This document shows positions 12,101 to 59,615 of a DNA stretch of 64,000 nucleotides, in pieces. The stretch's first letter is position 1. Every line of letters starts with the position of its first letter. The position numbers were made by a program, and so were the translations under genes. Location: positions 38,668,617-38,732,616 of the forward strand of contig NC_080421.1 in NCBI RefSeq assembly GCF_029873635.1, given 5' to 3'. The DNA is from Malania oleifera (taxonomy: Eukaryota > Streptophyta > Magnoliopsida > Santalales > Ximeniaceae). Under the pieces are notes generated by a model that was not told where the DNA came from, searched no databases, and saw nothing but the letters and a program-made list of their open reading frames with translations.

Positions 12101-15100
12101 ATGCTTGGATGAGTGACATATTGAAAGATAAATTAAGGAATGAACATATTCGTGATAACTTAGTGTAACTCCTATAGAAGATAAGGTAAAGGAGGGACGA
12201 CTCAGATGGTATGAACACTTGCAACGTAGGCCACATAGTGCACCTGTGAGGAAGAGTGACTTAGTTACTGTGGGGGGCAGTTGAAGGGGTAGGGGTAGAC
12301 CTAAAATAACTTGGGAGGAAATAGTGAGTAAGGATTTAATATCCTTGAATCTATCAAAAGAAATGGTCCATGATCGCATAAGTTGGCGGAAAAAGATTCA
12401 TATAACCGAACCCACTTAGTGGGACTGAGCCTTGGTTTTGTTGTTGTTTAGATACTTTAATTGTTTTTTATGTGTATGGGTTCTACCTCTTGGAGTCCTT
12501 ATGTTGTATGCCTTATATCTTTTGCTTATTTATATTAATTTTTTATATTTTGAAGAAGGATGGACTTCAAGAACTTCCAAGGGTTGTCTTTTATGCTCAC
12601 CGCTGCACTAAGTGCTAATATTCAGATACTTATGTATTATAAAGCCTCTAGTTCTATAGTCCATGGCTAATCAATTACTGGGAAGCCTGTCATTCACAAC
12701 TGTGAATGTGCAGAATTTTTTTTTTTTTCTCTTACAATTTGTCCTTGAATGTATTGGAAAATACTTTGGAAACAAACCCAGAGACTTCTTCATATATGAG
12801 GAATTCAGAATTGTAGTCAAATGAAATTTTTTCTTTAAACATGTAGGTTTCATGAGGTTTCATGGGAATGCTTTCTACGGTATCATTATTTAGGATCATT
12901 TCCATTGCTGCTGGTTTTGCTCATAAATGTGCTTCCTCTTTTCTTTCTTTGGTTTTTGTTGTGTAGAAGTTTGAAGGCCTCTTTCTTTTCTTGATTGTTC
13001 TATTTTCTCGGTTTCTTCCCTGTAATCATTCTAGATCCTAAATTCCAGAGTTAAATTATCTTGCCTCTCAATCTCCTATGAACCTTCAGTCTTGCAATTT
13101 TCTGTATTTAAGCTTTTGATTTTGTTGCTACAAATGTTCACATCGGCACCAGCTTTCCACTTTAAAACTTCATCTTAGCTAAAATGGGAGCAGTCTGTGT
13201 TTGACAAGAAAATGCAAGCCTGCAATAAAACCACAAGCTATCAAACTTCCAATGTTGTATAATTAATCTGCTTCCCAATCTGAAAGAGGGAATGCAACTT
13301 CATAGAGCAGGCTCAATGCCCAGCAGATCTTGCCAATCACAAGGCTTAATGAAAGGATTTTTTATTGCTGTGGCACTTGATGGCCAAAGCATAAATATGC
13401 AAAGTTCAGTGTTGATTCCATTGGTTGTTGTTTCAAGATTACATGTTCATATTTTGTAGAGTTGCAAAAGGATGAAAGGGTTTTTTAATAATTATTTTTG
13501 CCATCTCTTTTATGTGTTTGTATGTCCTTGATAGAAAATTTAATAAGCCGTGCACTGTTTGAAAACTTTGAATATTGTCTATAGAAAATTATGATTGATT
13601 CAAAATTATAAATCCATGACCTCAAACATTGATTTTTTTTCCCCCTCTATTTAAAAATTGTTTACAGTCTTTGAACATTTCTTCATATTTTTGGATGCTT
13701 TTGTTTTTATGCTTCCCTGACTGTGTACATCTTTGGTAGTCGTGTTTTTGTTGGAGATGTTGTAGTTTTGAAGGATCCTGAGAAATCAAGTGGTTATCTG
13801 GTTCGAAGATTGGCAGCCATTGAAGGGTATGAAATGGTGTCTACAGATGAAAAAGATGAGCCTTTTGTTCTTGAACAGGATCAGTGCTGGGTGTTGGCTG
13901 ACAATGAAACTTTGAAACCCAAGGTATATGGATGTTTCTTATTCAAACGTGATCTTTTAAATTTTTATGGATACTTTTCGTATGTTTATTGGTTTGTTTG
14001 TTTTTTATTTTATGAGTAACCAGCCAATTGAAATATATTAGCATAGGGGGAAAATGCATGTGTGTATCAGTACACATGTACAACCAAGTCCCACGTTGGC
14101 TAGAGCTACCATTACAGACACTAGATTTTATATTCTTACCCATTAACCTACCTTTTACATCAAATAAGATTCTGCTTACAGCAGCTTCAGATTCAGGCAG
14201 CTTGTCATGCAGTTTTTGATTTCTAGTCCTCCAATTGTGATACATGGCAGCAGCCCTTCTTGATAAGAGTGGAGAGAATTCCTGAAAAACCCTCCAAAGC
14301 CAACTCGATCAGTATTTCACTCGGTATTAGCATTATTCATGAAGCAGTTGGTGAAGATGTTTCGATATATTGCAAAAGAGAAGCAGAAGGAAAGATGATT
14401 CCTTCTTTCTGAATCAGAGCTGCAGAAATAAATATTCAGAGGAACTTCTCAATCGCTTCTTAATCATCAATTTACCAATTTATAAGAAGTCCATATGAAA
14501 AACAAGCCATGAAAGAAAAACATGCTTTTTGGGATATTCTTTTACCAAATCACTTTATATCTTAACCAAAGGGGGCTTTGATTGTCACACAATCTCACGC
14601 AGATCTGAAAGTAAAACTACCAGATGAATCAGCTTCCCAAGACCACTCATCTTCAGAACCAATGACAGGAAGAAGCTCAATTGGAGTCTTAGAACGTAAA
14701 TCTGGACAGGCAAAGAAACTTGGGTTAATTCAGGTATTATCTGACAAATTAATATCTAACTTTTGCTTCTCGTGGTAAATCAAAATCCTGACTACGTGAA
14801 GTCCATAAGACTGCATCAATGAGACGGGTGGCAGTTATCAAAAAATAAAAATGTATTCCTGCCATTCCCTGCAAAATGCTTTATACAGGAAAGATTGGGG
14901 AATTTTCAAAGACCAACTCTTCTTTTTTATTTTATAGGAGTGGACCTCCAGCAGCCCAAAGAAAATCCTTGCAACAAAAACTATTCCAAATCATTCTAAA
15001 AATAGCACCTTTATTCCAATCTTCCGAAGTCTTGAATCTAAGTCTTCTTCAAAAGGTTTATTGGCATGAGGCCAACCTACTTTACGGCCAAAGTATTTCA

Positions 15101-18100
15101 GTCATTTCCATGCCATACAAAGGCATTAAATTTTTGCTCAAAGCCACTTAGCAACCTTCTGAGGAAGAATTAAACAAAACACCAAAATATTTGAATGACT
15201 GCATTACCCAATTCTTGCTGCCTTTTCTATTTCCACCATCCAACCAGACCTCTTCTCCTCTAGGATCAGACAGCCACAAGCCCACCTTATCCAACAGTTG
15301 TTGAGCTTCTAAATCCTTCCCTATAATCACTGCAGACACCAGCAGTGGCGGCCCCTCTTCTCTTCCCTTTCTCTCCTTTATTTTTCTGTTTGATTCTTTC
15401 AAAACTACATAGTGCCGGTGTCAGGTTTTGGGTCCCCCTCTCTCTCTCTCTCTCTCTCTCTGTGCGTTCCGGTGACAGTGCTGGTGTCTATTTTTCCGGT
15501 GGCTGGTTCTGTCAACTACCAACAGTGCTTATGTGCAAATAGAGCACACAACCACACGCTTCCTTACAAGACATTTCAACTTTCCAGCAGCCAATGCGCT
15601 TATATGCCAGCAAGGAACATCTGAAGGATTTTCCAGTGTTCTTCCGATACTTCAAGAATTGCAATATAAGTCCAGACGCGAGAAATGGGAAAATTTCCAC
15701 TGTATCTTAATTTTGCTTTGTGATATTTTGACCTGTTCTGCAGGATCTTGGAAGAAAAAAAAAATTCAGTCTTTTTGGAGGATGAATAACTCTGCCAGCA
15801 GTCAGATTGAGACACAGCTTCAATATTTTGAAATTAATAGCAACAGTTGGGTTTTTCCTTCTTGGAGCTCTCAATTTTCATGTTGTGTTTTTTTTAGCTT
15901 TTCTTGAGTTTCTTTCCCATTTCGGTTTTTTTTCCCTGTGAGGGATTTTCATGTCCTGAAATTTGATTTGATTTTTCATGTCTTCTTGATCTCTTTCTTT
16001 GTCTCCATGGACGAGGGGTTTAGGGCTAATGGTAGCAACAGGAAAGATCAGCCTTCTGTAAAGATTCTCTTGGATTTTGAGACATGGGTCTTTTCTACAT
16101 TCTTCAAGTTATGCTATGGCAAAAACGGTATTCTTTTATTCATCTTCCTTTGTTTGGATTCAAATTTATTTGGCTTTGGTGGCTTTTAGAGGATTCTTAT
16201 TCAATTGTGGCATGCAATGGATCAAGAGATCAATAAAGAAGCAATAAAGATTTATGGGTTGAGGAATCTTGTTTCTTCAATATTCTTGATTTTGAATCTT
16301 GAATTTAGATTGAAGAATTTTTGCAATCCCTCGCTTAAATATTCTTCGATTGATTTCATTAGCATCAAATTTCCCGAGACAAAGGATACTTACGGTAGTA
16401 TTTTTCAAGCGGTTGTCATTTCCTTTTAGTTTTCAGTCACCAGTGAGATCTTCTCCTCTCTTGTTATTTCTTTCTTATTACCAGTGTTTTTAAAGGCATA
16501 AATAGGGCGCGCCTTGAGGCGTTTTAGGGCAAAAACACACCAAGGCGTAAGTTAAAAGGTGCAAGTCCACAAAAGCGTAAGCCTCAGGCGAGAAGGCGTA
16601 CACATCAGGCAAAAAACCTCGCCTTTTTACACCTCAGCATCCAGGCGTACGCCTTTCGGTATCCCTGCCAAAACCTAGAATGCAGCCTCTGCTCTCTCTC
16701 AAAGCCTCAACGAAGCCTTTGCTATCTCGATGAAGCTCGACTAAGCCTCTGCTCTCTCTCGAAGCCTCAACAAAGCCTTTGCTCTCTCCGATGAAGCTTG
16801 ACGAAGCCTCTGCTCTCTCTTTCGAAGCCTCGACGAAGCCTCTGCTCTCTCTCGAAGCCTCGACGAAGCCTCTGCTCTCTCTCGAAGCCTCAACGAAGCC
16901 TTTGCTCCCTCTGACGAAGCTCTATGAAGCCTCTGCTCTCTCTCGAAGCCTCTGCTCTCTCCGACAAAGCTCGACGAAGCTTCTGCTCTCTCTCGAAGCC
17001 TTTGCCCTCTCTTAAGAATTATGTTTTTATTAGTTTCTCCATTATTCTAACATTTTTCTCATTTTTATACTATATATAAATTTTTTTATATATTAATTAT
17101 TTTTAAAAATAAAGTCCTGAAATGCTTACGCCTCAACAACTTGAGGCTTGTGCCTCACCTCGCAGAGGGTAAAATGCCTCGCGTTACGCCTTTGCCTTTT
17201 AAAACACTGCTTATTAATATTATTAATAAATTTTTCGAATAGTTGGTTGCTAGTGGAGATTTTGTGTTTTTGATTTGTAGTCTTAGTAGTTAGTATATTC
17301 AATTTTGTGTTTTTTGTGTTTTTCATTTGTAGGTTTTGGAATATACAAAATTTTTCAAAAAAAGTACTATTGCATGGTTCTTTTTAATTGTAATATAGCT
17401 GGATTCACATTGTATGCTTTAAATTTAATTTTTTTTAATGCATTGTCTTGTAGTGTGGTTTCTACTAGTTGTAGGGTGTGATTTAGAAAATTTTTTATGT
17501 GAAAAAAAAACATGCAATTGTATACTTTGCCTATGTAATACAATTTTCTTGTACACATAGCCGGTCCCAAACCCGGATAAAGGAGTAGGGTTGTGTTAGG
17601 TAGCTGATAGCTAGCGTAAAACTTTGTTAGATCTTATTATCATGAATTCTTACCATATTCACTTAGGTCAAGGGAATAAACTAAGTCAGTATAAAAAGGA
17701 AAGGGTTAACAAGTTAGCACAAGAAAATAATATTAGATTAGCAACTTGGAATTTAGGGACTCTTACGAGAAAAAGTATGGAAATAGTGGAAATAATGTGT
17801 ATAAGGAGAATTAACTTATTTGTCTTCAAGAGACGAAATGGATAGGAGAGAAAGTAAGAGAAATTGAAAAGGATTTAAACTGTAGTACACTGGTAAAGAG
17901 AAACGTAAAAACGAGGTGGGCATTATTGTAGACAATGACCTAAAAGATAATGTAGTAGATGTTAAAAGAATAAGGGTAGGATCATTAAAATCAGAATAGC
18001 TTTAGGCTTGGAGGTAGTGAACATCATTAGTGTGTATGCTCCCCAAATAGGCTTAGCAAAAAATCTTATAAGACAATTTTGGGAAGATATGGATATTATT

Positions 18101-21100
18101 GTACAAGAGATACCAATGTCTGAAAAGACATCCATAGGAGCTGATTTGAATGGTCACGTTGGAAAGGATAATTTAGGATATGAGAGGATACGTTGAGGCC
18201 ATGGATATGGAGATAAAAATGAGGACGGTAATACAATCTTAGAATTTGCCATGTCTTACGATTTTGTTATGTTGAATACTTGCTTTATAAAAAGAGAAGA
18301 ACACTTAACTTTCAAGGGTGAGTATAATAAAAGCCGAATAGATTTCTTCTTAACTAAGTACGGGGATGATCTATCTTGTAAGGATTGTAGAGTTATTCCA
18401 GATCAAAGTTTGGCTACTCAGCATAGAGTCTTAGTATTGGATGTACATGTTAAAAATTGGAAGAAAAGGAGCAGTATAAATCAACACAAGAGTACTAGAT
18501 GGTGGAAATTGGAAGAAGATAATATAGTAAAATTCAAAGATAAAATGAACAAAGAGTGTAATTGGGTTGTAGGGGATAAGGTTGATGCAAATATTGTTTG
18601 GAATAAAATGACAAATTTTGCAATTATAACACGAGGTTTTAAGTGAGTCCAAAGGAAGATATGTAGGCAGTAAAGAAAGTTGATGGTGAGATCAAGAAGT
18701 CTGAAAAATAGTTAAGGCAAAAAGGAATTGGTATAAAATATGGCAAAATTGTAGAAATATAGAAAATCTTGAAAAATACGAAGAAACAAGAAAAAAAATG
18801 CAAAAATGGCTATTAGTGAAACTAAACATAGAGCTTATGATACTTTATCTACTAAACTAGATACAAAAGAAGGAGAAGAAGACATTACAAACTTGCTAGA
18901 GCTAGAGAAAGAAAAGGCAAAGATTTAGGTGAAGTAAAATGTATAAAGGACGATAATGATAATGTTTTACTTAAAGAAGACATAAAAGAGATTTGGCGGA
19001 GATACTTTGATAAGTTGTTTAATGAAAACCAAAATGAAAGATTGAATGTGGAAGTGACAAATGAGGAGAAGACTAAAAATAGGAGATTTATTCGTAAAAT
19101 TAGAGCCCTTGAAGTTAAGATGACATTAAGAAAGATGAAAAGTGGGAAATCTATAGGACCACATAAAATACCAATTAAAGATTGGAAATGTTTAGGGGAT
19201 AAAGGAATTATTTGGTTAACAAATCTATTCAACGCTATTATAAAAACCAGGAAAATTCCAGAAGAACGGAGGAAAAGTACGTTAGTATGTTTGTACAAAA
19301 TAAAGGCGATATTCAAAACTGTAATAACTATTGTGGAATGAAGATTTTGAGTCATACGATGAAATTATGTGTAATTGAACATAGGAAACGAAGATTTTGG
19401 AAAATCAATTTGGTTTTATTCTTGGGAGATCAACAATAGAAGCTATTTATCTTTTAAGAAGTTTAATGGAAGGGAAAAGAAGAGGGATTTGTATATGGTT
19501 TTTATTGACCTAGAGAAAGCTTATGATAGAATACCTAGGGAAGTTCTTTTGTAGGTCTTAGAAAGGAAGGGAGTGTGCAGTAGACTTACAGATGTTATTA
19601 AGGATATGTATGATAAAGTAGTGACTAGCGTTAGGATTGTAGGAGGAGATCTAGAGATTTTCCAATCACAGTAGGTGTATATCAAGGTTCTACTTTGAGT
19701 CCTTATTTTTTACTTTAGTAATTGATGAACTAACTAAAAATATCCAAAATGAGATTCCTTGGTGTATGTTGTTTGCAGATGATATTGTGTTAATTGATGA
19801 TAGTAAGAGCGGAGTGGAAAGCTAGAACTTTGGAGTACACATTAGAGTCTAAAGGGATTAGGATAAGTAGGAATAAGATAGAATATATGAAATATAATTT
19901 CAGTAATGTAAGGAGTAGAAATAAAGAGAAGATAAAACTTGATAATCAAGAGGTTTATAGCACCTGATAGATTTAGATATATTGGATCTATTATGCAAGC
20001 TGAAGGAAAAATTGAAGAAAATGTAGTACATAGAATTAAAACAGGTTGGGTAAAATGTAGGAGTGCGTCAGTTGTGTTATGTGATTGTAGAATGCCCTTA
20101 AAATTAAAAGGAAAGTTTTATAAAACGGTTATAAGGCCAACTATGCTTTATGGTTCAGCATGTTGGACAACTAAGAAACAACATGTACAAAAGATAAAAG
20201 TTGTTGAGATGCGAATGTTAAGGTGGATAAGTGGTTTAACATTAAAAGGTAAAGTAAGAAATGAGCATATACATAATAATTTAGGCATAACACAGATTGA
20301 AAATAATATAAGTGAGGGGCAGCTTAAATGGTTTGGGCATTTGAAACAGAGTTCTAGTAGAACACTTGTGAGGAGGAATGAGTTAGTTATTGTTTTTGGC
20401 ATGAAAATTGGTAGGGGTAGGCCTAAAATGACTTGGAATGAGGTAGTGAGTAGAGGAAAACACTTTTGATTGAGTGAATTGGCGGAAAATAGTTCATATA
20501 GTCGACCCCACCTAGTGGGACTTAAGGCTTGTTGTTGTTGTACCAAATTATTTGAATGCTGAAGATTACTGCTGTAACCTTCTGGCATAAGATAAATTCC
20601 CATGCGCCCAGTAATCGATCTTGCCTGAAATTCTTTAAAGAAGCTGATCGCAATCTTTAGGAGACAACCTCTTTGTAATAAGAAGCCACAAGTATCTAAC
20701 AAGTACCTTGTCCTCCTAGATTCGCCAAATACTCAGAACATCAGTTTTGATACTTAGATCTATTCCAGCGCAGAAAACTTCAAACTTTCCAGGGTTAGCC
20801 TTAAAGTCCAGAGGTCTTATAAAATATCTCGAGGACATTCCTTATTCAAGAAGCAGTTTGAGTGCATAACCATTTGCAAAGACAAGGGAACCGTAGGCAA
20901 AGTTCAAATCTGTATCTTTTACCCTTTTAAGCTTACTGTGAAACTTAAGATCTTTAAACTGTAAATCTTTTGAATAAATCTTAGGGGCCTTTTGGTATCA
21001 CTGCCAAAAATTACGAAAATGAAAACCAGAGACAAAAACCAAACACTTGAAACATAAACTAAAAACCAAAAACCAGCAACCTATTTAGTTAATATTTGTA

Positions 21101-33100: not shown

Positions 33101-36100
33101 AAGGAGACTCAGATATGCATTTCATCATCAATCACCATTGGAGAGTATCTAGAAAATCTTCCAACTGCAAGTAGCACAGAAGGCTGCAATGTCCTCTGAT
33201 GAAACAAATAGTCCTCCAAACAAGAAATCAATTTAATATCCAAATCTATTGGCAGCTTAAGCAAACCACGATCATCACACTGCCGTTCAAAGTTCAGAAA
33301 TTGCAGGAACTGGAGCATTGTTCACCTGCAACTTTTTCCAGAAATTACAATCGTGCCACTGGTTCGAAACCCTAATTTCCATCAATAATCTTCCAACACC
33401 TCCTTCACCATCATAACCAGAACCCTCTGAAAGGCCTCTCCTGCAGCTCCATTTCCACTTGATGAGGGGTGCGGGCCCACACGCTACTTGAAGGTCTCCG
33501 AGCCAACCCCCTCCTGAAATCTCAGATCTGCCAATATTTTCTTGACACTCCCTCACCATCACGGGAACCACCACCTCTTGTTCTACCACCAGCCGGAGAA
33601 TCATTGCTGGGGATGCCTCACCAGTGGCGCACGTGCCCCACATGCTGGCAACTTATGAGTGAGAAATTTCCAGAGTGTTCTCCCGCTTCCAAATTCATGA
33701 GAAATTCCAGCCATGATAAATTTGGTTTTCGCTTGAGATTTTGAAGCTGAATTGAGTAAAATTCAAGTGCTAATGCAAGTTACATGTTTGGAGGGTAATT
33801 CAGTACCAGAATTGGATCCAGACTTCATTTGCTGCATTTTGTAGGATTTTATATTATGGACGGTCAGCTCAAATTTCTGTGTTTTGAAGGCCTACCAGCA
33901 CTCAGATTGAGGCCCAGCTGCTGTATTTTGAGATTTACTACAACAAATTTAGTTTTCCTCTGCAAGATGTAAATGTTGGTGAATAAATCTAACTTGGATT
34001 GTTTGATGCATATACTTGAAGGATAAAGTCAGCATTATTGGCCCCTAATGTCAGGTTTAATTCTAATTTTTTTTGGAATTTATGCAAGCCACCCATTATT
34101 GCTGATTAATTGGATAACCTACAGCCAGGAAGCCAACATTTTTAATATTTTGCAAGATATGAGTTTGAGAAATGTTCCATGGGATTCTATGCTTTGTTTG
34201 AGTTTCAATGGTAATTTTTCCGAAAGTGAATTCATAAACTGGCTGTATCTTGATATTTATTTTGATACAATGACACACCTGAAACAAGAAGGGAAAGATT
34301 TGCATCTTATGAGCTTGTTGGTTCAATGGCTGAGTGGTGGGATAGAATACAATGCTACCGAAGACAAGGTAAAACTCAAACCTTCTTTTGGTTTAGAACA
34401 GAAATGTTTGTTGGTATCTGAATTCTTATGCAACTGTTATCATGAGATCATTTTCCATCTCAAGAGAAAAAGGAGTTCTTATTTTGGGCAATATGATCTT
34501 CCAATCTCAAAATGGCCTTATGAAGGATGAAGCAGAAATTGTTGTTGCCATGGACTACACATACGATCACAAAAAGAGGAAACTGCTAGTGAACTTGAAT
34601 TCTCAAAACAGCCTATCAAAGATGAAACGGAAGTTGTTATGGACTACACCTCTGATCACAAAAATGAGGAATTTTGGAAGTGATCCTGAATTCATGTTTG
34701 TTACGGATTATCAATGTGAAAATGAAAGCTCCATTAATTGTGTAGATGCTAGATCATGCGGTGCCATCCTTAAAGGGCAAGAAAATGCATTGCAACAGCA
34801 CGTTCAAGTTGTAGAAGTCCCAGGATCAGGCAACAAAGTTCAATGTTAAAATTGGGAATCCAATTGAGCAGAACTACCTTTTAGAGGATGAATTCTTGAA
34901 TCTTGTGAGAAGCTAGTGACACAGACCCCAAGCCTTGAATCATCATCCAAAGTGTGAAACTTCTCCCTATCGACTTCATCAAGATTGAGAACCATGAGGA
35001 CAATTGCAATAATTCGTGAAATTACAAGTTGAATGGTTCATTGATACACATTCCATACTTTTGTTGCACCATATTAAAACTCAAGTTTGAGTTTTCTCTA
35101 ACTAGGGGATTTTGATGGAGGATTGCTTGCAAATTATTCTAGGTGAACATATTTTGTTTAAATTTAGAAATCAAGGATTTTGTTGTAAATTAGGAAATTT
35201 AGATATTTTAGAAGTTTAGTTACTTTGAATTTATTTGTGTAATGTAAGTACTTTCGAGTTATTTTTTGTTATTATGTGTTTAATTGGGTTTATTTTGTAA
35301 ATATGTGTTGTCAGTAGTAGTGGGTATAAATGCTGGACATGCAAGTTATTGTGTAGTTATCATTTGAAATCAGAACTGCTGTAGTTTCCCTACCTCTCTC
35401 CCTCTCCCGGGGCGGGCAGGTTCTCCTTTTGCCTCCTCTTCTTCTCCCTCCCCCATCTCTGTTTTGTTCTTTGTGTTCTGTTCTTCTTCTTTCTGTCTTT
35501 CTCTGTCTCTTATATCTTCTGTTCTGGTTCTGTCCTGTTACCTCTTCTTCTCCTTCTTTTTCTTTTCTTCTCTGCTTCTAATTCTCTCAATTCTCTCTCT
35601 ATCTTTGACTCTCTTACTTGTCCTACATCACACGGACACTCCAAAAGGGCCAGGGACATTCCTGACACCGACACGCCCCTGGCATGGCCATATACGTGTC
35701 TGACATGTGTCCAAAATTAATTTTGTTGAATTTATTTGGACACTAGTGGATGCGCCCTGACATGGAGTAGACACACCCTAGACTTTTTTTTCTTCCCTTC
35801 TCTTCAAATACTGCATTTTGCTTCCTGCATTTGGCCACTTACAAAACTTTAAAAAAGAAGACACAGGCAGATAGAAGAGACGAGGAGAAGCTTAATCAGA
35901 GTCCTAGCATAACTCGCGACCCCATCCTCCCCTATTATTGCCATCAAACCTCTCTCCAAGCTTGCAGCCTTCTTCACCCTGTTTACCGAACATCTCAGCC
36001 TCGAGAAGGAGCTTCTTCGGAGCCCTAGTTTGACTTGCAACCCCATTCTTCCCCGTCCTTGCCATCAAACCTCTCTCCCAGCCTCGAAGCCTCTTCTCTC

Positions 36101-39100
36101 TTGAAGGCTTGAAGCCTTTTCTTTGCTGAACGTGAGTCACCCTCTTCCTCCTTCCCTCCTTATTCGTCTCCTTACCTGTTTTTTACTAGTTGCAGGATAT
36201 GATTGAAGTGCCCAAGCACAATTAGGGGTTTCAGTGTTTGAAAAGCTAAATGCAAAATTGATATTTTGGTGTTTGAAAGGTTAAATGCAAAAATTGATGT
36301 TTCAGTCTTTCAAAATTTGAAAGTGGGGCTGCTAGTTTTATTAGGTGGGTAGATGCAAGAGCCATATATATGGCTCTGCTTATGCAACTTTAACCCCCAT
36401 CTCCCGAAGGGTTTAAAATGCATCTCGAGGAAAAATCAGTTTTGTACTCAAGAGTGTTTGAGTGCTTGCCAATGGCCACTGCCTATTTCTTTTTAATTAA
36501 AATTACCTCAGTATTTTTCATTTAAAAGGAAAAACATGACTAAATATTTTTTATATTAGTTAACTAACGTATCCCGGCCGTATTGTATCCAATTTTTGCA
36601 AAATAACGTATTGCCATGTTAGTACCTTGTCATATCTGTGTCCCATGTCAGTATTGGTGCTTTCTAGCTTGTCCCATATCCTCCAAGGGAAAGAACAATG
36701 CAAGAACAAGTGAGGCAGATTCATTTCAGCAATCATTAATCCTCATCGAGGTAGAAAATATTTTTTAAATACATAATAGCCCCAACATTTTTCACCTATG
36801 TGTCTATAGAAGTATACCCCAGCTTACATCATTTTACAGCACATGCTGAATTGCAAATCATTCCTGTTGCACAAATTGGAACATGCCATGATGAAATGTC
36901 ATTGACATGTCATTTTTTTTATTTCAAACCAACAAAATGTTCCTCTTTTGATTTGTATTTATACATTAATTTTTCTTGCTGATTTTATATCCTTCATCAA
37001 ATATCTGCTATATCAAAGAAACAAACTTGGTATTGACAGATGCTAAAAACATGAGTTAGTGGAAGCTATGAGAAATTTTTGTTTGCAAATCAAGAATGGT
37101 TGGGATATTGATGTATTTCATTGATGCAGCTAGAACAAATTTGGCTGACATTACCATTTTGTTTTGTTTTTTAATAGAAAAAGAAGACAATTTTATTAAA
37201 CCTGAGAAATGGAGTTCATGATTGGAGGACAAGGAGTTCTCAACCGATTAGAAAACCTGAGAAAAACCAAAAAAATAGTGCAGAGAATACCAAACAAAGG
37301 AAAAAAAATACAATCCAAAACTCCAGCTCAAGATTAATGCCTTCCAGTCGGACAGCGGAAGACCATTAAAAAAACCCAAAGAGGGCACCCACAGGGAGGC
37401 TAGGGAAGTCACCCTGTCCCAAAAAAGCTGTGAGCAGGTAGAACGAGTTCTGAAAATACTAGTGGTCCTTCCAATCCACATGGCCCAAAGAATGGAAGAA
37501 ACAGCCGCACACCATAGAGTTCTGCCATTTCTATTCTTTCCCAAATTCCTGAAATTAACCAAAAGCAAGTCTTTCACCTTTCCTGGAGCCACCCACTCTT
37601 CCTCTGCCAGAGAGAAAAGAGCATTCCAAAGCTGCGATGTGACCTTGCAATGCACAAAAAATGGGCAATTGACTCATTTTTTTCACGGCACATGAAGCAC
37701 ATATCAAGACTAGGGGCCATAGAGTGTCATGTTCTCTTAAGCATGTCATTCATGTTGATCTTTTCTAGGATCACGGTCCAAACAAAAGTCTGAATCTTTC
37801 CCAGTACCTTAGCCCTCCAAAGTAGGCGGTTCCAAGGAAAAGGTTTAGGGATATGAGTTTTCAAAAGATGAGATGGGAAAGATTTAGAAGTATATATGCC
37901 TTAGGAACGCCCCTCCCCACTCTTAAAATCCACTAGAAGAATGTGTTGGTCCAACAAGGAAATGAGGTTAGTGAGCTCAACGAACTCACTTTCATTGAGA
38001 TTCTTGAAGTAGTGAAAGAACTAATAGGAGCATTATAAAGAGAAGAAAGCTTAAAAAATGAGGAACCTTTAGCATCAATGGAATCCCCCCCACCCACATC
38101 TTCTTAGAAGTGGACTTTTTTGCCATTACCCACGTTGAACCAAATAAGAGGAAAGAATTGATTGGTTACCCGAAAGACAAATTTCTAGGGACAAGCATGA
38201 GAAGTAATGATGCTGCTTTTTGTCTCCCATCCATTTTGTTTGATCCGGGACTTACTCTTTATCACCTTATGCCAAAGGGATTTAGTTTTTAGAGGAAACC
38301 TCCAGAGCCATTTACCTATAAGAGAATTGTTCTTTGATACCACATTCCCAATACCCAAGCCCACCTTTGACTTTGGTTGCAAACCAAATCCCAGCTAACA
38401 AAATGGTCACGCCTACCCTCCCTGGGACCCGAACAAATTAAATTACACATCAACCCCTCTTAAGGACTTGGAAACTCTAAAGGGAACTCCAAAAAAAGAG
38501 AGATAATAAATTGGGATATTTAGAGAGAAGCTCTAGTAGAGTAGAACAACTCTCAAGGGAAAAAGAAGCCCTCTTCCAACCCTCCAATCTCCTAGCCACT
38601 TTTTTCAGGACAAGATTCCATAAGTCCTTCAACGTTTGGATTACCTCCAAGGGGGAAGTAGAGATAAGTAAGGGGCCATTGAATGGATTCACAACTTGCA
38701 CTCTATTTGAAATTCTAAGGAGTCCTCTCACCCATGTCAATGCTAGGCACATCGCTCTTGGACAAGTTGATCATAGGACAGATCTTATCAAAGATTTTGA
38801 GCAACAAAATAGCTTTCTTGAACTTTACTAAATTTTCCTCAAGGAGTAGTAGAGTGTCATTAGCAAACTAAATATACAAAATCTCCACGTCCTCCCTCCC
38901 CACACAAAGGCCTCATATTGCCTTCCTTGCTTGAGCGTGAAAGAACAACCTACTACAGATTTCAACAACAAAGGTGAACAAGCAAGGGGATAGAGGGTCC
39001 CTTGTCTAAGATCCGTAGAGGCCTTGAACCAATCTCTCAATTAACCATTGACAATAACAGACAAATGGGGCAAAGTGAGACAACCCTTGATCCACTTTCT

Positions 39101-42100
39101 TCACAAATCTCCGAAGCATTTTTGCTCATCACCCTCTCTAAAAAGCCCCAGGTGATCCTATCATAGACTTTCTCAAAATCTACTTTTAATATGATACCCT
39201 TTCTTTCCCTCCTCTTCACATACTCTTACCTCCTTGTTGGCCACCAACATCGCATCTAAGATATGTTTGTAATGGATAAAAGCGGATTGAGCCAAGGTGA
39301 TAGTTTCCCCAAGACAATTTTGAGTCTCTTAGCAAGGACTTTAGATAGGATTTTATAAAGGCTAGTGACAAGGCTAATTGGTCTAAAGCCCCCAACTCTT
39401 TTAGTTCCCTCCTTCGTAGGGATAAGAGTTATAAAAGTGGATGTAGCACTGACATTCACCACACCATTCTGATAAAACTTTTCAAAAAATTTGAGGATAT
39501 CTGCTTCCAACACACCCCAATTTTCTTGTAAGGGAGCCATTGAAAGCCATCCAAGCCAGGGCCTTGTCTCCACTCATTTCAAAAGCTGTTTTTAAAATTT
39601 CCTCAACCTCAAAAAGGTGTTTTGAATCACTGAGCAAAGTTTTCCTTGATGAGACTCCAATCAAGGCCTTCCACCATCATTACATTTGGGATTTCATCTA
39701 GAGAAAGGGATTTATAGAAATTAGTATATCTCTACTCCCATTTTGTCTTTACCCCTCTCCACCTGACCGAAGTCCAAAATCAACTCCTTGATGTAACTTC
39801 TCCTCCTCCTGTTTGCAACCTTATGGAAGTAAATTGAATTGCACCCCCACCTTTCCAAATTCATCCATTCCTATATTTTCGGAACCAACTCATGTCTCCT
39901 CTTGAGCAGACCACAGTCTTCTAACCTATCCAAAGCTGCAATATTGGAGAGGATCCCATTTTTTGCAGCTTTGACATTCCCAAAAGTCTCCCTATTCCAA
40001 GCTTTCAACTTTGATTCAGGAGTTTCAGCTTCTTCAAGAATTTAAAAACCCTCCCAACCCTCCACCGACACTCATTCCTCCAACTTCTAACATTTTCTAG
40101 AAGGAAGGATGAGTTAACCACATGTTGTCAAAATAGAAAGAAGTGAGTCCCCATTGCATAGGATTGGACTATAAAAAAATAGGAAAGCGATCAGAGGTAG
40201 GCCTAGGCAAGATTTCCTTGATGAGATGAGAGAATGCATCCTCCCACTCATTAGTGAACAAAAATCTGTCAATATGGGAGCAGAATCAACTTTCCCCAGA
40301 AATTCCCCTAGTGAAATGACCATTATCAAAAGGGATGTCTCTAAGCCCACACTCCCGGATGAAACAATCAAATTTCCTCATGGTGAAAAAGTCCTAGAAC
40401 TCTCCAAGATTCTTTAGCATTGCAAATCACATTGAAATTGCCCCAAAACCCAATGAGGGCGGCATAGACCAAAAAATGCCCCCCAACTCCTTAAAAAACT
40501 AGGTCCTCAAAGAAACAATGTTCGACCCATACACCGAAGTAAACCACCACTTCCTTACACCTCCAACATCAATGAGAACAGACAAGGAGGAGGACCCCTC
40601 AAGAGCTTCCTTAACGAATGCTACTCTAGAATCCTACATAATAGTCTGACTCCTAGATGCCCTCGATGAAGGAAGACACACCCAGTCTCCATTTTTGAAG
40701 TCCCAAAGACTTCTGATCAGAAATGAATCTACATCCTTTAGTTTACTTGAAGGAATAAGATGTCTCGACTGGATTTGAGATGAGTTCCTTTAACCACTCT
40801 TTTACCCCCTACTATGTAGACCTCTCATGTTCCAAGAAAGGATCTTCACTTTGTGTGTAAGAAGGCCCTAGCTGGAATTCCACCCTTATCATACTTAACC
40901 AAAGACACCAACCTATCCAGCTACCTCCTTAGTTTCTTAGCCTTTATTCTATCCTTGAATCCCCCTTCCTAAGCCTTATTCTTTTGCCCCCTTGAATTAA
41001 CCAAAGCTAGGTTGAACTCATCCAGGAGACACTAGGCATCAAGGTTCTCATCTTCCATTATGTCCAAAGAAAAAGAAGAACTCTCCTCCAGAGGATCCCT
41101 AGTGCAAAGAGGTACATTCGAGTTATTCTGGGACACAAATGTAACAGGTGGACTATCAACAATGGCTATCTTGCGTGTCCTCCAGAACTTCACGACTCAG
41201 ATTGCATGAGCTCAAGTTAAGAAAAGTATTTGGTTTGGCTGAGGACTCCAAATTTTCAACAGAAAAAACATGGTTTAAGGGTGCTCCAGGCTATGGTTCT
41301 CAGGATTGAGGGCTCTGTCTGGGCTCGCTGCTTCCAGTAAAGAAGACTCACCAGCTTTTCCTGAAGATGGGATCCCTAATGTATGACTTTCCTGTCCCTT
41401 GCACCTATCAAGATCTCTGAGCTCTCTCTTCCTGCGGAGACAATCAATAAGGAGCCCTTCATTGTCTGAAGAAAAAGGGCTGACAGCATCTGTTTTGTCC
41501 TTTGAAGTTTCACCCTCTGATGCGACAATCTGTTTGCCCTTAGTCTGATCAGATCCTTTCCCTCCCAACCAAGCCCTGAATCTCCTACAAGCTGCCATTT
41601 ATTCTCATTAACACCTCCTTTGATCTTTTACTGGTTGATTGCAAGAGAGATTTCCTCCCTCAATTTTCGGTATTGGAGATGGAATTGTTGCTTAAGGAAG
41701 TCGATTTTCTGCCTTGTATGAGGGCCTCCTTATAGGACTGGAACTTGCAGTAATCGACTCCAATTTTAGATAAAGGCCGAGGTTTAAGATTGACTGCTTG
41801 GAAAGATTTTTTTTTTTTTTTTGTGTGCGCGTGCAGTTTTCCTTCAGAACAGACCCAGTTTTAAGTGGTCTGGAAGCTGGAACCACACGGTTGGAAACAC
41901 CTTTCTTCTTGCACGAAAATCTCATGCCTTGATTAAGAACTTTCTCAGATTTGAGCTCTTCCTAGGCAAGGATATTCCCCAAGCCCTGAAATTTCCCCTC
42001 AAATGCCAGTTTTCCCAAATTAAAATTACTCTTTAGCTGTGGGCAACACGATTAGAACCCATGACCTCCTGGTAAGCTGCTCTAAGACCATATTAGACAA

Positions 42101-44691
42101 CCGTACCCAGTGCACTAGGCTCTCCCACTTTGAGTGGGGTCTGGGAGAGGTGGATGTCGGCAAGCCTTATCCCATATTTGGAGAGGCCGCTCCCAAGTCT
42201 CAAACCCGAGACCACCCGTACCGAGGCGGAGGCACTTGCCATTGCACCAAGGCACAACCTCTAAGACCATATTAGACAACCACTTCGCCTAAAAGCTTAA
42301 GCCGTTAGGTGTGGATCAACAATATATATCAAGCTTTAACACCTCTCCTTTATTTGTTTTCTCTTCTTTCCTGTCCCATGTCAATTGATATTGGTATCAG
42401 AGCCCACTCGGTTCCAGCTGTAAATACCTCTGTTACCACACAAATGGTCCGCCATAACTGTCCAGCTCATCTCCATCCCAGGCGGTCTCATCTGCCAGTT
42501 CAAAGCCTCACTTCAATCCAATCATCTGCCACATCACTGCCACTGATAACTGCCTTTCAGCCATACCCTAATAAATTGAAACCCTTATCATTTTTCCCTC
42601 CAGCAAACCCCTAAGTCCACAGAGCCTGTTAATTAGAAGGAAAAAACAGTCACTGTTGCAAAGACCAGGAAAAAGCTGGAGATGGCATGGTAGAAACTGC
42701 TGTCGCCAGTTCTGAAATTTAGAAAGGTTATAGGAGGAAAAGAAAAAGATTGCTGCTGCCTCAAAGCTTTGTTGTCGGGAAGTGAGTTAAATCCTTTCTG
42801 CATTCCCTTGCCATTGGAGCCATCATATCCATCTTTGCCAGTGCGCCAGCCTGTAACTTCTGTCCAGAGAGGAGATTTTGACTGCATCATAGAGAGGTTC
42901 AAATCAGGCATGAGTTGACTTATGATGCGAAATATTTGGTAAATTTCTGAGAAACTGAAGAAAAAGCTGACCTAGTATCAAAAGCAATCTTGTAGGCACC
43001 TAGTATGGCTACATGGAGCATCATATGTGCTTGTACTCTTTTTGAAAATTAATTTAATGTTGCTTATCTAATTGGTATGCTTGGGAATTTGTACTTGGAC
43101 TGTACCTTTTTCTGTTTGAATTTGTATTAGGTATGTTGTACTTTTGTGTGTTCCTCATTCTTGCTCTTCAATGTTATGGACAAAAAAAAAAAAAAAATAC
43201 ATGTTGCCTTTCTTCTTGCATCAAATCATGATTTTGTTTCCTTTACTCATCCTTACAAATTCATCTATTATTTTTTATTTGTTCCAAGGAAAAAAATATG
43301 TTGTTATGAGTCTTTTGACAGTTTTGGTTATGAAGTAGTTGGCAATGCTCAACAAGTGACTAAACCTAGATGCCCCTTTGAGTTTGATGGATGTTCAAAC
43401 CCTCATTGTTTCTGATATTGGTTCAGTTAACATAGGAAACTATTTTGATTGGTGTGGATTTTCTTACTGCCAATAAATCCACTTTGGAATATCAAGACTC
43501 ATTCGATTGGATAGTCCTAGGCAATCATATTCTAGTCAAATATGTAGAAATTAAAAATTTGTTTTTGTTTGGCAAATCTTGATGTCATGAGGAATTTTTA
43601 GTTAATTTTCGTGTGTTTTGTTTATATTAGTTATTTAGGGTATTATTTTGATATTTAATTGCTTTGGGGTTGTTTTACAATTTTTGATTAGGTAGAGGTT
43701 ATGTTGTAATTTTGATTGTTTTATAGTAAGGGGTTTTTGTCTGCCATTAAATATTGGCTTATAATGCAAGGCATTGTTGACTTTTGGATGATCCAGTGAA
43801 TCTATAATTACTCTCTTGGTTCCCTATTCCCCCCCCCCCCCCCCCCCAAAAACATATCGTCTCTCTCTCTCTCTCACGACATCTTCTTCTCCCTTCTTTT
43901 TTCTCTCCCTTTCTTCCTTTATTTACCTTGTTTTCTCCTGTCTTTCTTGCCCTACATATCAACACACTAATGAGCCGACAACAAAAAGTTCAACAACAAA
44001 CAAGCCTCAAGTCCCACTAGGTGAGGTCGGCTACATGAATCCTTTCCCACCAATTCACCTCTTCTCATTACCACAGTCCAAGTTCTTTTAGGTCCACTAC
44101 TACCTCTTTTCATGCCATAAACAATAACTCACTCACTCCACCTAGCTGCGTATGGAAGAGAAAGAAAGTATGCACAGGAACATATCCACATTTTCAGTTT
44201 TGAGTAGATCTAGCATTCAGCATTTCAAGAGATTCTATATTTGAGCTTTGCCTAAAAATATGACGTGGTTTGGATCAGTTTTAATTATTTGCATATTAAG
44301 ACTGCTTGATTTGTGGAGTTTATGGTCAGAACTCAAACTATAAACCTGCTTGATTTGTGAAGGTATTGGGATAGCATTCAAACTATTTCTTTTTTCCTCC
44401 AACTTTTTAAATGGCAGGAAGCGAATGACAGCAGAGCGTTTGGCCCAGTTTCCATGGCGGACATAGTTGGCAGAGTCATATATTGCTTGAGAACAGCTGT
44501 GGATCATGGGCCTGTGCAGAATAGGTATGCTGCTCAAATAATTTCAATTGATTATTTTTGTTGTGATAGAGAGAGAAAACTGTGGGTGAAAATTTTGTTC
44601 CTTTACCAGTCATTTCAGCATGCAAAAGGATTCACCAGTATTGGAGATTGAACTGGACGTTGATGAGATGGCTAAAAGTCACAAAACCTAG
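2462..44691 (+). CDS. S26-type peptidase-like protein (At1g06200/At2g31140-like), 5 exons, catalytic dyad replaced
   Basis: Joining exons 2462-2533, 8338-8510, 13740-13923, 44418-44524 and 44619-44691 gives 609 bases, 202 residues, with GT-AG introns and consistent phases (0, 2, 0, 2). The protein starts [20 protein letters not shown]. It has the S26 fold layout: a box B-like segment [12 protein letters not shown] (53-64), [12 protein letters not shown] (84-95), [11 protein letters not shown] (103-113), QCWVLADN (130-137) and box [10 protein letters not shown] (147-155). It ends VELDVDEM-like ([12 protein letters not shown]). Relatives in the family are signal peptidases and mitochondrial inner membrane proteases. 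Here the nucleophile Ser of SMxP is Glu59 and the base Lys is Arg104, so catalysis is unlikely; from memory the Arabidopsis relatives look similar. The role is unknown, possibly organellar; I see no clear membrane segment. Intron 3 is 30.5 kb and packed with transposons. Confidence 0.9.
3144..3716 (-). mobile_element. 5'-truncated L1 LINE, antisense, with TSD
   Basis: The + strand starts with a T-rich end and AGAAGATTTCATTAAAAG, the reverse of an L1 3' end. The - strand reads a degraded zf-RVT region (for example [13 protein letters not shown]). It is flanked by imperfect 14-bp direct repeats TTCTTGCTTTGATT (3130-3143) and TTCTTGCTTTCATT (3717-3730), the expected target-site duplication. Confidence 0.7.
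4564..4673. repeat. 55-bp tandem duplication
   Basis: Two adjacent copies (4564-4618 and 4619-4673) of a unit beginning TCTATTCCATGTTTATGGAT differ at very few positions, suggesting a fairly recent local duplication in intron 1. Confidence 0.8.
4876..4910. repeat. (CT)n microsatellite
   Basis: Uninterrupted TC/CT dinucleotide run of about 35 bases in intron 1. Confidence 0.95.
6161..6187. repeat. (AT)n microsatellite
   Basis: Uninterrupted AT dinucleotide run of about 27 bases in intron 1. Confidence 0.95.
6225..6385 (-). mobile_element. Very short 5'-truncated L1 3' end, antisense, with TSD
   Basis: A 161-bp insertion beginning with a T tract and AAAAAAGAAGATATCTTAAG, the reverse of an L1 3' end. 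It is flanked by 17-bp direct repeats TTGGTTATACTCGCTTG (6208-6224) and TTGGTTATACTCACTTG (6386-6402) with one mismatch. Confidence 0.7.
8338..8510 (+). CDS. Exon 2 of the S26-like gene
   Basis: Follows acceptor AATGCAG. Encodes residues 25-81 plus two bases of codon 82 ([19 protein letters not shown] onward to IPAANP). It contains the GEEMAP motif at 57-62, where S26 proteases have SMxP. Donor is GTGATA at 8511. Confidence 0.92.
9545..10660. repeat. Nested tandem duplication (635-bp period with inner 161-bp repeat)
   Basis: A block starting GATTGTGAAGC at 9545 recurs at 10180. Inside the first copy a 161-bp unit starting GGCAAGGGGCTAGCC at 9770 recurs almost identically at 9931, while the second copy has a single version (about 10397-10570). 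So a roughly 474-bp unit was duplicated, and the first copy then gained an inner 161-bp duplication. The inner pair is more alike than the outer pair. No coding potential is evident. Confidence 0.8.
12085..12450 (+). mobile_element. 5'-truncated RTE-type LINE
   Basis: The + strand encodes, with frameshifts, the C-terminal part of a plant RTE reverse transcriptase: a degraded [12 protein letters not shown] segment, [12 protein letters not shown], then [11 protein letters not shown]. It ends with the family 3' end CCACTTAGTGGGACT and a TTGTTGTTGT tail. It matches the 3' end of the longer copy at 17557-20541. Confidence 0.75.
13740..13923 (+). CDS. Exon 3 of the S26-like gene
   Basis: Follows acceptor TTTGGTAG. 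Its first base completes Ser82, then it encodes R83-K143 ([16 protein letters not shown] onward). It carries [20 protein letters not shown], where Arg104 occupies the position of the catalytic Lys, and QCWVLADNE. Donor GTATATG at 13924 opens the 30.5-kb intron. Confidence 0.92.
16482..17209. mobile_element. hAT-type MITE with TIRs, 8-bp TSD and internal tandem array
   Basis: Left end CAGTGTTTTTAAAGGC and right end GCCTTTTAAAACACTG are inverted repeats. The flanks CTTATTAC (16474-16481) and CTTATTAA (17210-17217) give an 8-bp target-site duplication with one mismatch, as expected for hAT. Subterminal GGCG/CGCC-rich sequence flanks a tandem array at about 16685-17010. No transposase is present, so it is non-autonomous. 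Confidence 0.8.
16685..17010. repeat. Tandem array of GAAGCCTCTGCTCTCTC units inside the hAT MITE
   Basis: About ten degenerate copies of a unit combining GAAGCCTCTGCTCTCTCTC with CGACGAAGC, of mixed 20-36 bp spacing. It gives an open frame of repeating [10 protein letters not shown], which is a by-product of the repeat rather than a gene. Confidence 0.85.
17557..20541 (+). mobile_element. RTE-type LINE, near full length, inactivated
   Basis: Starts with GCCGGTCCCAAACCCGGATA, a typical plant RTE 5' region. The + strand then reads the endonuclease ([20 protein letters not shown] near 17730; [15 protein letters not shown] near 18015; GADLNGHVG near 18140). The reverse transcriptase follows ([17 protein letters not shown] near 19140; [16 protein letters not shown] near 19505; [12 protein letters not shown] near 19770). 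The C-terminal part is open from 19939 to 20469 ([31 protein letters not shown]). It ends CCACCTAGTGGGACTTAAGG with a (TTG)n tail. Frameshifts and stops break the ORF into at least six parts, although FADD is intact. The 17-bp repeat beyond its tail pairs with 15181-15197, so its 5' boundary is unclear. Confidence 0.85.
20984..21687. mobile_element. PIF/Harbinger (Tourist-like) MITE, copy 1
   Basis: Terminal inverted repeats GGGGCCTTTTGGTATCA (left) and ATACCAAATGGGCCC (right), flanked by TTA on both sides (20981-20983, 21688-21690), the 3-bp duplication typical of Harbinger elements. The interior is AT-rich and non-coding. It sits within the RT part of L1 copy A. Confidence 0.75.
22770..23115 (-). 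mobile_element. 5'-truncated L1 LINE (copy B), nested in L1 A, with TSD
   Basis: Flanked by perfect 15-bp repeats TCCTTAGCTGCAGAA at 22755-22769 and 23116-23130. The + strand begins with a T run and AAATTTATTAAGGAGAG, the reverse L1 3' end. The - strand encodes the C-terminal tail ([32 protein letters not shown]). L1 A resumes on both sides. Confidence 0.85.
23549..23698. repeat. 75-bp tandem duplication in the solo LTR
   Basis: Two adjacent 75-bp units containing TTGATTTGAAACCAAGTTTT differ at only a few bases. Confidence 0.8.
24664..24689 (+). promoter_or_regulatory. TATA box in a perfect hairpin, probable LTR promoter
   Basis: GAGACTCCCTA (24664-24674), loop TAAA, then TAGGGAGTCTC (24679-24689) form a perfect 11-bp stem. 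The centre reads CTATAAATAGG, a consensus plant TATA box. It lies about 1.3 kb into the solo LTR, where the U3/R boundary would be expected. Function as a promoter is inferred. Confidence 0.65.
25440..25740. repeat. About 51-bp tandem array (6 copies) in the solo LTR
   Basis: Units beginning CCCAAGCCCATTTTTCAA start at 25441, 25492, 25543, 25592, 25644 and 25694 (spacing 49-52). Each continues with a CCCTGAGCCCGTTTTAAAA-like segment. Confidence 0.85.
30127..30904. other. Intron sequence upstream of L1 A, nothing recognised
   Basis: Part may be the 5' UTR of L1 copy A, since ORF1 begins at 30126 on the - strand. I see no gene, array or clear element termini. Confidence 0.5.
30905..31317 (-). 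mobile_element. L1 LINE 3' part (copy F), antisense
   Basis: The + strand starts with TTTCTTGTTTGAAAAAGAAG (reverse 3' end). The - strand reads a degraded zf-RVT/C-terminal region, including [18 protein letters not shown], which parallels [17 protein letters not shown] in copy B. The upstream part of the same reading ([17 protein letters not shown]) is found at 36666-36735, so this L1 was split by the block 31318-36665. Confidence 0.7.
31439..32126. mobile_element. PIF/Harbinger (Tourist-like) MITE, copy 2
   Basis: Ends GGGTCTATTTGGTATCA and TGATACCAAATGGCCCC are inverted repeats of the same family as 20984-21687. It is flanked by TTA (31436-31438) and TTG. The 3' LTR shows the empty site GAAGTTTAGTTAC near 35210, confirming a 3-bp TTA target. 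Confidence 0.8.
32201..32875. mobile_element. Non-autonomous DNA element, possibly Mutator-like
   Basis: Ends AAGGTCTAAAATTT and AAATTTAAGACCAT are imperfect inverted repeats. The flanks GGTTATTTGC and GGTTATTTAT look like a 9-10 bp target-site duplication, and the 3' LTR at about 35280-35310 lacks the insertion. Class is inferred from TSD length only. Confidence 0.55.
33011..34047. other. Internal region of the LTR element, not assigned
   Basis: Between the 5' LTR and the gag-like frame. Short frames exist on both strands without recognisable domains. About 33890-33950 resembles 15790-15845. Confidence 0.4.
34048..34848 (+). pseudogene. Possible gag remnant of the LTR element
   Basis: Two overlapping + frames (34048-34530; 34442-34849) give fragments such as [19 protein letters not shown], reminiscent of gag segments of the form FNG...FLDWL...FF. 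They lie between the two LTRs. Near 34520-34670 there is an internal repeat (GACTACAC...GATCACAAAAA twice). There is no protease, RT or integrase. The assignment is tentative. Confidence 0.35.
35113..35430 (+). mobile_element. 3' LTR of the degraded LTR retrotransposon
   Basis: Starts TGATGGAGGATTGCTTGC just after a purine-rich CTAGGGGATTT and matches the 5' LTR (31331 onward) without the two nested elements. The visible match ends near GGTTCTCCTTT at 35421-35431; the true end may lie further on. Confidence 0.6.
35431..36665. other. CT-rich and duplicated sequence right of the LTR element
   Basis: 35455-35620 is pyrimidine-rich. About 35890-35975 and 36010-36095 are a diverged direct duplication sharing GCCATCAAACCTCTCTCC. 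The stretch lies inside the block that split L1 copy F. No gene is supported. Confidence 0.45.
36666..36790 (-). mobile_element. L1 zf-RVT fragment (upstream part of copy F)
   Basis: The - strand reads [17 protein letters not shown], a clear L1 zf-RVT signature. AGCTTGTCCC at 36666-36675 is nearly repeated as AGCTTGTTCC at 31308-31317, where the rest of the zinc-finger region continues. Confidence 0.65.
36791..37154. other. Intron sequence, nothing recognised
   Basis: AT-rich; no gene, repeat array or element terminus was seen. Confidence 0.5.
37155..42030 (-). mobile_element. Nearly complete L1 LINE (copy C), antisense, inactivated
   Basis: On the - strand: ORF1 segments (about 41930-41275, for example [16 protein letters not shown]); endonuclease start [12 protein letters not shown] near 40845 and PTSDRFP near 40190; RT with [20 protein letters not shown] (39400s), [19 protein letters not shown] (39150s) and LPKGQ-free fingers; the FADD box as FANDTLLL near 38855 just after a stop codon; zf-RVT with FMCRE near 37690, HCKVTSQLW and [20 protein letters not shown] (37250-37655). 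The 3' end is the T-rich stretch at about 37155-37200 on +. Frames are broken repeatedly. The 5' limit (about 42030) and any TSD are uncertain. Confidence 0.85.
42040..42404 (+). mobile_element. LTR end plus primer-binding site of an LTR retrotransposon
   Basis: The segment AAGCTTAAGCCGTTAGGTG through CAAGCTTTAACA (about 42293-42341) looks like the end of a plant LTR. TGGTATCAGAGCC at 42392-42404 matches the initiator tRNA-Met primer-binding site common in Ty1/copia elements. An SINE is inserted in it (42103-42258). No gag-pol follows. Confidence 0.6.
42103..42258 (-). mobile_element. Au-like SINE with 23-bp target-site duplication
   Basis: The flanking 23-bp repeats at 42080-42102 and 42259-42281 (CTCTAAGACCATATTAGACA plus ACC) are identical. 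On the - strand the 156-bp insertion starts with TTGTGCCTTGGTGCAATGGC (tRNA-like, box A region). It then has GGGTTTGAGACTTGGGA (box B-like) and ends with CTCCCAGACCCC...GTGCACTGGGTAC, typical of plant Au-type SINEs. Confidence 0.8.
42405..44417. other. Internal/LTR-like remnants at the end of intron 3
   Basis: No coding domain is recognised. About 43500-43800 resembles AT-rich LTR sequence, with pieces similar to the LTR at 31331. It is followed by a C19 run (43829-43847) and a CT tract (43860-43877). Exon 4 follows at 44418. Confidence 0.4.
43829..43877. repeat. Poly-C run and CT tract
   Basis: Nineteen Cs at 43829-43847, then a CT dinucleotide run from 43860. Similar C runs occur near 50696-50715 and 55757-55775. 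Confidence 0.9.
44418..44524 (+). CDS. Exon 4 of the S26-like gene
   Basis: Follows acceptor ATGGCAG. Encodes E144-N178 plus two bases of codon 179, including box [10 protein letters not shown] and [18 protein letters not shown]. It is recognisable only as the missing C-terminal part of the exon 1-3 protein, 30 kb downstream. Donor GTATGC at 44525. Confidence 0.9.
44619..44691 (+). CDS. Exon 5 (last) of the S26-like gene
   Basis: Follows acceptor CATTTCAG after a 94-base intron. Completes Ser179 and encodes [20 protein letters not shown] and HKT, then TAG at 44689-44691. The acidic tail ELDVDEMAK fits the family C-terminus. Reading through the donor of exon 4 would instead give an unrelated tail. 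Confidence 0.87.
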
Positions 44692-45969: not shown

Positions 45970-45982
45970 TGGTATTAGAGCC
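45970..45982 (+). other. tRNA-Met-type primer-binding site remnant
   Basis: TGGTATTAGAGCC differs by one base from the copia-type primer-binding site at 42392. It marks a second LTR retrotransposon remnant; neither flanking LTR is clearly bounded. Confidence 0.5.

Positions 45983-59614: not shown

Positions 59615-59615
<1 letters not shown>

Follow-up and report, generated by a model that had tools for sequence, protein, structure and literature searches.

Long plant introns built up from transposable elements have been described in several lineages. In Ginkgo, 16,939 introns, 12.45% of all introns, are reported to exceed 20 kb (PMC5118899), and LINE-rich long introns are on record for Gnetum and Amborella (PMC9364684). 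For Arabidopsis, the longest annotated intron is given as about 11 kb, and a 17-kb intron carrying a T-DNA is reported to be capable of being spliced (PMC5364540). A plant system comprising IBM2, EDM2 and AIPP1, which allows Pol II transcription to pass through heterochromatic introns, is described in two reports (PMC5364540, PMC11265718).

The locus presented here, an S26-like gene of Malania oleifera, contains a further case of such a TE-expanded intron. Like the long introns of other seed plants (Ginkgo, conifers, Gnetum and Amborella), its intron 3 combines a build-up of LTR elements and LINEs with conserved exons and a length above 20 kb. In contrast to Ginkgo-type genomes, the host has a genome of 1.49 Gb in which most sampled introns are short, and intron 3 is an outlier. 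The gene may also be likened to the Arabidopsis IBM2/EDM2/AIPP1 targets IBM1 and PPD7, as reported, in that a TE-bearing intron would lie within an expressed gene; one difference from that class is length, about 11 kb for the longest annotated Arabidopsis intron (PMC5364540) against 30.5 kb here. Our searches of the open-access literature, which were not aimed at Malania oleifera, found no published account of this gene's intron. We consider it very probable that the locus is a working nuclear gene related to S26 peptidases, apparently present in one copy, with an intron 3 that grew by TE insertion and with ordinary transcription, splicing and silencing. As a tiny gene in a putative 42-kb transcription unit of a mid-sized genome, it offers a clean case in which the reach of plant splicing can be tested.

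A five-exon S26-like gene spanning 42 kb

The Malania oleifera genome comprises 1,494,336,490 bases in 510 contigs. Since C13 measures at least 83.6 Mb and C14 only 62 kb, it likely has 13 chromosomes. The window, that is, the whole 64-kb stretch that we analysed, corresponds to C5:38668617-38732616, and positions below are counted from its first base. We rebuilt the gene model from the raw sequence. On the forward strand, exon 1 (2462-2533, 72 coding nt) starts with the ATG at 2462, with an in-frame TAG upstream at 2411; it is followed by exon 2 (8338-8510, 173 nt), exon 3 (13740-13923, 184 nt), exon 4 (44418-44524, 107 nt) and exon 5 (44610-44691, 82 nt), which ends in the stop codon. The gene thus covers 2462-44691, or 42,230 bp, with introns of 5,804, 5,229, 30,494 and 85 bp, so that the 42.2-kb span and the 30.5-kb third intron of the initial annotation were both recovered. 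Its statements that all splice sites are GT-AG with agreeing phases and that the gene looks intact also held: all four introns are GT-AG, the phases after exons 1 to 4 are 0, 2, 0 and 2, and the five exons give an uninterrupted frame of 205 codons. At 609 bases and 202 residues, the coding length had been counted slightly low; with its stop codon, the CDS measures 618 nt, which leaves 615 coding bases.

Intron 3 (13924-44417, forward strand) has the donor AAG/GTATAT and the acceptor TTTTTAAATGGCAG/G, is in phase and is flanked by exons of a single intact frame. When the joined protein was compared with the window by tblastn, the five exons were matched together with a single chance-level piece (E 7.7). 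Frame, splice signals and homology together predict the junction 13923/44418. The gene looks intact, and its intron is real and ordinary in kind, with an extreme length.

The product is probably a pseudo-protease

The joined protein matched Pfam Peptidase_S26 (PF10502) over the cut-off, with an E value of 1.2e-7, and reached 44.8 bits with the NCBIfam signal peptidase I model TIGR02227, just under its cut-off of 47. A phmmer search of PDB chains gave no match up to E 1. We aligned the protein with E. coli LepB (a fragment checked in the PDB), Paenarthrobacter lepB and two S26 relatives encoded in the Malania oleifera genome, at C5:31.087 Mb and at C12:35.819 Mb. In the box-B region encoded by exon 2 (KGEEMAP), the catalytic Ser, present in all four comparison sequences, is replaced by Glu59; in the box-D region of exon 3 (VRRLAAIEG), the catalytic Lys, likewise present in all four, is replaced by Arg104. 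Pontibacillus lepB agrees with this Ser/Lys comparison, and a third relative at C8:90.60 Mb, seen at the Ser position only, has the Ser. The DSR..G box is retained in exon 4 (DSRAFGPVS). S26 relatives with both catalytic residues therefore occur in the same genome, and the residues found here make the product a probable pseudo-protease.

We take At2g31140 to be the probable Arabidopsis orthologue. Under the name AtIMP2, At2g31140 is reported by Migdal et al. (2017; PMC5594102) to be mitochondrial and negative in yeast complementation, and these findings are restated in PMC8847149. AtIMP2 is called a protease homologue in print, whereas the gene in the window is without both catalytic residues. 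The failed complementation would be explained if the protein were a pseudo-protease; plant IMP2, so named in print, may come from a lineage that has lost catalytic activity.

Intron 3 is a nest of old transposable elements

The initial annotation described the exons as separated by 30.5 kb of transposons. This is true of most of intron 3 but overstated for the whole of it. Dispersed copies elsewhere in the genome matched 54% of the intron base by base, a figure for which the three genome queries left out 31401-32199. The share rose to 58% when repeats within the window were included, to 67% when the unmatched middles of recognised elements were filled and to 79% when LINE-B, recognised by motif only, was added. 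Thus, the majority of intron 3 consists of dispersed repeats and 21-46% lies outside called elements, depending on the strictness of element calling. Three LINEs, a lone LTR of 4.9 kb and an LTR pair 0.18 substitutions per site apart make up the inventory, together with four short MITE-like repeats. They form a nest of old elements inserted into one another: a MITE lies in LINE-A, an LTR in LINE-B and two inserts in LTR A, of which LTR B preserves the empty site.

LINE-A (16233-20541) lies in the sense orientation and has many long genome copies of 79-84% identity. Its 5' limit is uncertain because one genome copy (C8:879393-880495) also matches the adjoining upstream segment 15352-16389, at 79%; the element or a neighbour may start earlier. 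A hAT-like MITE occupies 16482-17209 within LINE-A. Its ends are CAGTG and CACTG, its 8-bp flanks, CTTATTAC and CTTATTAA, differ at one base, and it contains a minisatellite at 16684-17012. In no fewer than 12 of the LINE-A copies in the genome, bases 16481 and 17210 are adjacent, which identifies the segment between them as an insert. One LINE-A segment compared with the PDB had no match up to E 0.1. An antisense 3'-end fragment of a LINE-A relative lies at 43988-44143, about 275 bp upstream of exon 4, and a sense 3'-end fragment in intron 2 (12081-12446) brings the pieces of this LINE type in the gene to three. Another LINE-A relative (C12:80699000-80708999) lies in a chaperonin gene, within a long gap. 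Elements of the LINE-A type may often be located in introns of the Malania oleifera genome.

LINE-B is of the L1 type and antisense, and is split in two by the lone LTR at 23375-28232. We recognised its reverse-transcriptase side (20600-23374, limits approximate) by eye from an 11-residue motif and its endonuclease and ORF1 side (28233-30200, 5' limit approximate) from SWNIRDLN. The lone LTR is 4,858 bp long and bounded by TG...CA. Nine genome matches stop within 2 bases of its 3' end at 28232; the 5' end is based on one genome copy, the middle is mostly without matches, and the flanks CCCAC and CCTAT would be a target duplication only on the assumption of two C-to-T changes.

The old LTR element (31331-35631, forward strand) consists of LTR A (31331-32982, with two interruptions), an internal part of which pieces occur at four genome loci with 69-81% identity, and LTR B (35113-35404). 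Over 277 aligned sites, LTR A and LTR B agree at 84%, giving a K2P distance of 0.18. Both interruptions of LTR A are inserts whose empty sites LTR B carries: a MITE on the forward strand (copy 2, 31440-32126) and a short repeat (32200-32876), to which 28 of 55 genome matches correspond, at 81-84% identity; the query for this repeat began at 32200, and its left end was taken from two loci and LTR B. MITE copy 1 (20976-21691, reverse strand), for which 25 of 49 genome matches are of nearly equal extent, is inverse to copy 2, the two being 85% identical. We considered whether intron 3 is a single large DNA transposon with long inverted ends and rejected this: the apparent arms (21.1-21.7 and 31.4-32.0 kb) are separate MITEs with ends of their own.

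The third LINE, LINE-C (37153-42040, antisense, L1-type), is 76-81% identical to its best copies, with a 5' limit taken from one copy. A segment of it matched L1 ORF2 structures in the PDB (best E value for a LINE-1 ORF2 chain, 4.7e-5), and its RVT_1 match was below the Pfam cut-off. We likewise rejected a gene nested in intron 3, judging from 28 stop-free segments scanned against Pfam and chosen from 300 of at least 45 residues: the sole sensible match was the sub-cut-off reverse transcriptase, and weak sub-cut-off matches to CC2D1A-B_DM14, ATP_Ca_trans_C, Piezo_cap, Galaxin_repeat and Syd were taken as chance. A tRNA scan of the window gave no match.

The coding frame has probably been under selection since the LTR element arrived

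The initial annotation had raised the prospect of a separate intact copy elsewhere, and this found no support. A protein query with exons 3 and 4 against the 1.49-Gb genome gave, at E ≤ 0.001, two matches, which were the gene's own exons, and no second copy. A processed copy of exons 3 and 4 would be expected to match as a single piece. Judged on these exons, the S26-like gene is apparently single-copy.

For a neutral clock we used the one LTR pair, whose K2P distance of 0.18 translates into about 0.09 substitutions per site in each sequence since insertion. At this rate, and with the indels of the pair, a 615-base frame free of constraint would be expected to have acquired about 2.2 stops and 4.4 frameshifts. 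The probability that it would still be intact is about 0.0014, or 0.11 when stops alone are counted, on a clock that is a single LTR pair and in repeat DNA, which mutates fast when methylated. These low survival odds suggest that the gene has probably been under selection since the LTR element inserted.

These data bear on whether the intron has recently broken the gene, such that exons 1-3 and 4-5 are no longer joined in one mRNA and the frame is an undecayed relic. Loss might be tolerated, since the motifs of the protein are not those of an active protease, and a GL2 intron enlarged by T-DNA to more than 20 kb is reported never to have been rescued (PMC5364540). However, the elements are old, as judged from the LTR pair (K2P 0.18) and from the LINE-C copies (76-81%), and the intron has consequently been long for a long time, during which five exons, their phases and their splice sites stayed intact; moreover, the genome search revealed no other copy of exons 3-4. 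We therefore regard a recent break as unlikely and retain the reading of a working gene.

Splice signals at the ends of intron 3 are strong

Splice sites were scored with approximate plant matrices. By these scores, the intron-3 donor (9.7) and acceptor (11.2) are the best among the gene's four pairs. Within the 30.5 kb, one donor and four acceptors in the sense orientation score equally well or better, compared with 3.8 and 5.0 in shuffled sequences. Sense AATAAA motifs number 35, near the shuffled value of 31.9. We also considered recursive splicing of intron 3 and rejected it, AG/GT ratchet sites being no commoner than in shuffles: at two lower thresholds there are 13 and 8 against 21.2 and 9.9, and at the highest threshold 4 against 3.5.

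Under the working-gene reading, LINEs, LTR elements and MITEs would have inserted repeatedly, over a long time, both into an intron that was already there and into each other. Pol II would transcribe all 42 kb of the unit, and exon 3 would be joined directly to exon 4 by the U2 spliceosome, favoured by terminal sites that are strong and that few sites within the intron equal. Heterochromatin, presumably with methylation, probably covers the inserted elements, and read-through may be aided by factors of the IBM2/EDM2 type, by analogy with Arabidopsis.

Intron 3 lies at the end of a heavy tail of intron lengths

As a length background, we took exon-by-exon profile matches for two families, chaperonins (PF00118; 84 of 87 matches used, three isolated ones being omitted) and kinesins (PF00225; 150 of 159 used). 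A gap was counted as one intron if the profile positions on its two sides were adjacent within -15 to +12. Wider gaps, among them two of 18.9 and 12.9 kb, were set aside, and exons were joined over distances of up to 60 kb in the chaperonins and 100 kb in the kinesins. The 43 chaperonin gaps, one of which is a hit overlap (-19) rather than an intron, have a median of 566 bp, and one exceeds 10 kb (16.9 kb). The 70 kinesin gaps, among the matches listed, have a median of 159 bp, with one above 10 kb (12.3 kb). For the two families together, among the matches listed, two of the 113 gaps exceed 10 kb and none exceeds 20 kb. A proteasome gene has a gap of 13.4 kb. Intron 3 is thus longer than every sampled intron and stands at the end of a heavy tail. 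The initial annotation had treated the giant intron as a special puzzle. With introns or intron gaps of 12-19 kb in chaperonin, proteasome and kinesin genes of the same genome, introns above 20 kb in Ginkgo and IBM2/EDM2/AIPP1 already described, that view finds no support, and the points that the annotation left open, namely correct splicing and internal silencing, call for RNA and methylation data rather than for a new mechanism.

Could the intron have been kept for a function, either slowing or timing expression or acting as a methylation sensor in the manner of the long intron of Arabidopsis IBM1? The reported IBM1 precedent (PMC11265718) and the long time over which intron 3 has been long, as dated by the LTR pair, would fit such a role. 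Against it, the 64-kb window contains no Rfam match at gathering scores; recursive splice sites show no excess; and long introns occur in unrelated genes of this genome too, repeats shared with the window being found in two of the four long-intron stretches examined. We thus judge a selected function to be highly improbable, and growth of the intron of a working gene by TE insertion remains our preferred explanation.

CpG depletion extends over the whole gene

Upstream of the ATG, the CpG observed/expected ratio is 0.75-0.85. Between 3001 and 45000, covered by 42 windows of 1 kb, it falls to 0.29 in the median, and it climbs again past about 46 kb, the 20 flanking windows having a median of 0.56; this comparison of gene and flanks omits windows 2001-3000 and 45001-46000. 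The genome background, a non-random sample read in 190 windows and made up of 19 stretches spaced evenly over six of the 13 large contigs, has a median of 0.54. The CpG-depleted block, 3001-46000, coincides with the putative transcription unit, coding sequence included. The coding sequence contains 12 CpG compared with 20.5 in codon shuffles, a fraction of 0.0005 of 2,000 shuffles being as low. Transposon age cannot account for this loss in the coding sequence; for the loss in intron 3, the age of the sequence is a fair alternative. By element, the ratio is 0.62 in LINE-A, 0.58 in the lone LTR and 0.22 in LINE-C.

This profile also bears on the integrity of the assembly. A block so rich in repeats might have been mis-assembled, with exons joined across it that do not belong together. 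However, the contig is 112.9 Mb long, the window contains no N, the nested elements have sensible boundaries and empty sites, and CpG depletion is found on both sides of intron 3 and through most of it. An assembly artefact is, in our estimation, scarcely credible, and we continue to treat the locus as one intact gene.

We then compared four 10-kb stretches in long introns or gaps of other genes. Their CpG median over 40 windows is 0.40, against 0.54 for the background (Mann-Whitney p 5e-4); taken singly, the stretches give 0.52, 0.51, 0.32 and 0.41, so that two of the four are near background. The transcription unit as marked by CpG loss would thus be readable from sequence alone at this locus, and the mark is weaker in the other long introns examined. 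Low CHG is expected of silenced elements. LINE-A (0.60) and LINE-C (0.61) have low CHG observed/expected ratios, whereas the lone LTR (1.03) and both sides of LINE-B (1.25 and 1.22) do not, with 0.95 for the whole of intron 3; the trace of silencing in the sequence is therefore mixed.

A broader reading can be put forward as a tentative suggestion, which we think unlikely: an apparently single-copy S26 pseudo-protease would have been kept intact for long as transposons filled its intron, and the CpG-poor 42-kb block would record that such an intron is handled by plants as gene body in the germ line, its younger inserts alone still standing out. Were this true, the limits of transcription units with giant introns could be drawn from the CpG profile of an unannotated assembly, and plant IMP2 would act as a scaffold and not as a protease.

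Other features of the window

Intron 2 contains an imperfect tandem repeat (9544-10656) with units of about 161 bp that are up to 99% alike. Downstream of the S26-like gene, an intact RING-H2 finger gene with a single exon and 257 codons lies on the reverse strand at 48853-49626; its CpG ratio is 0.86 and it is not depleted. It is followed by a head-to-tail duplication of about 5 kb (49851-54947 and 54955-59977), 90% identical, with no listed reading frame of 150 codons or more. The end of the window, 61775-64000, is a high-copy dispersed repeat; of 19 genome samples of 10 kb taken at even spacing, 7 contain partial matches to it.
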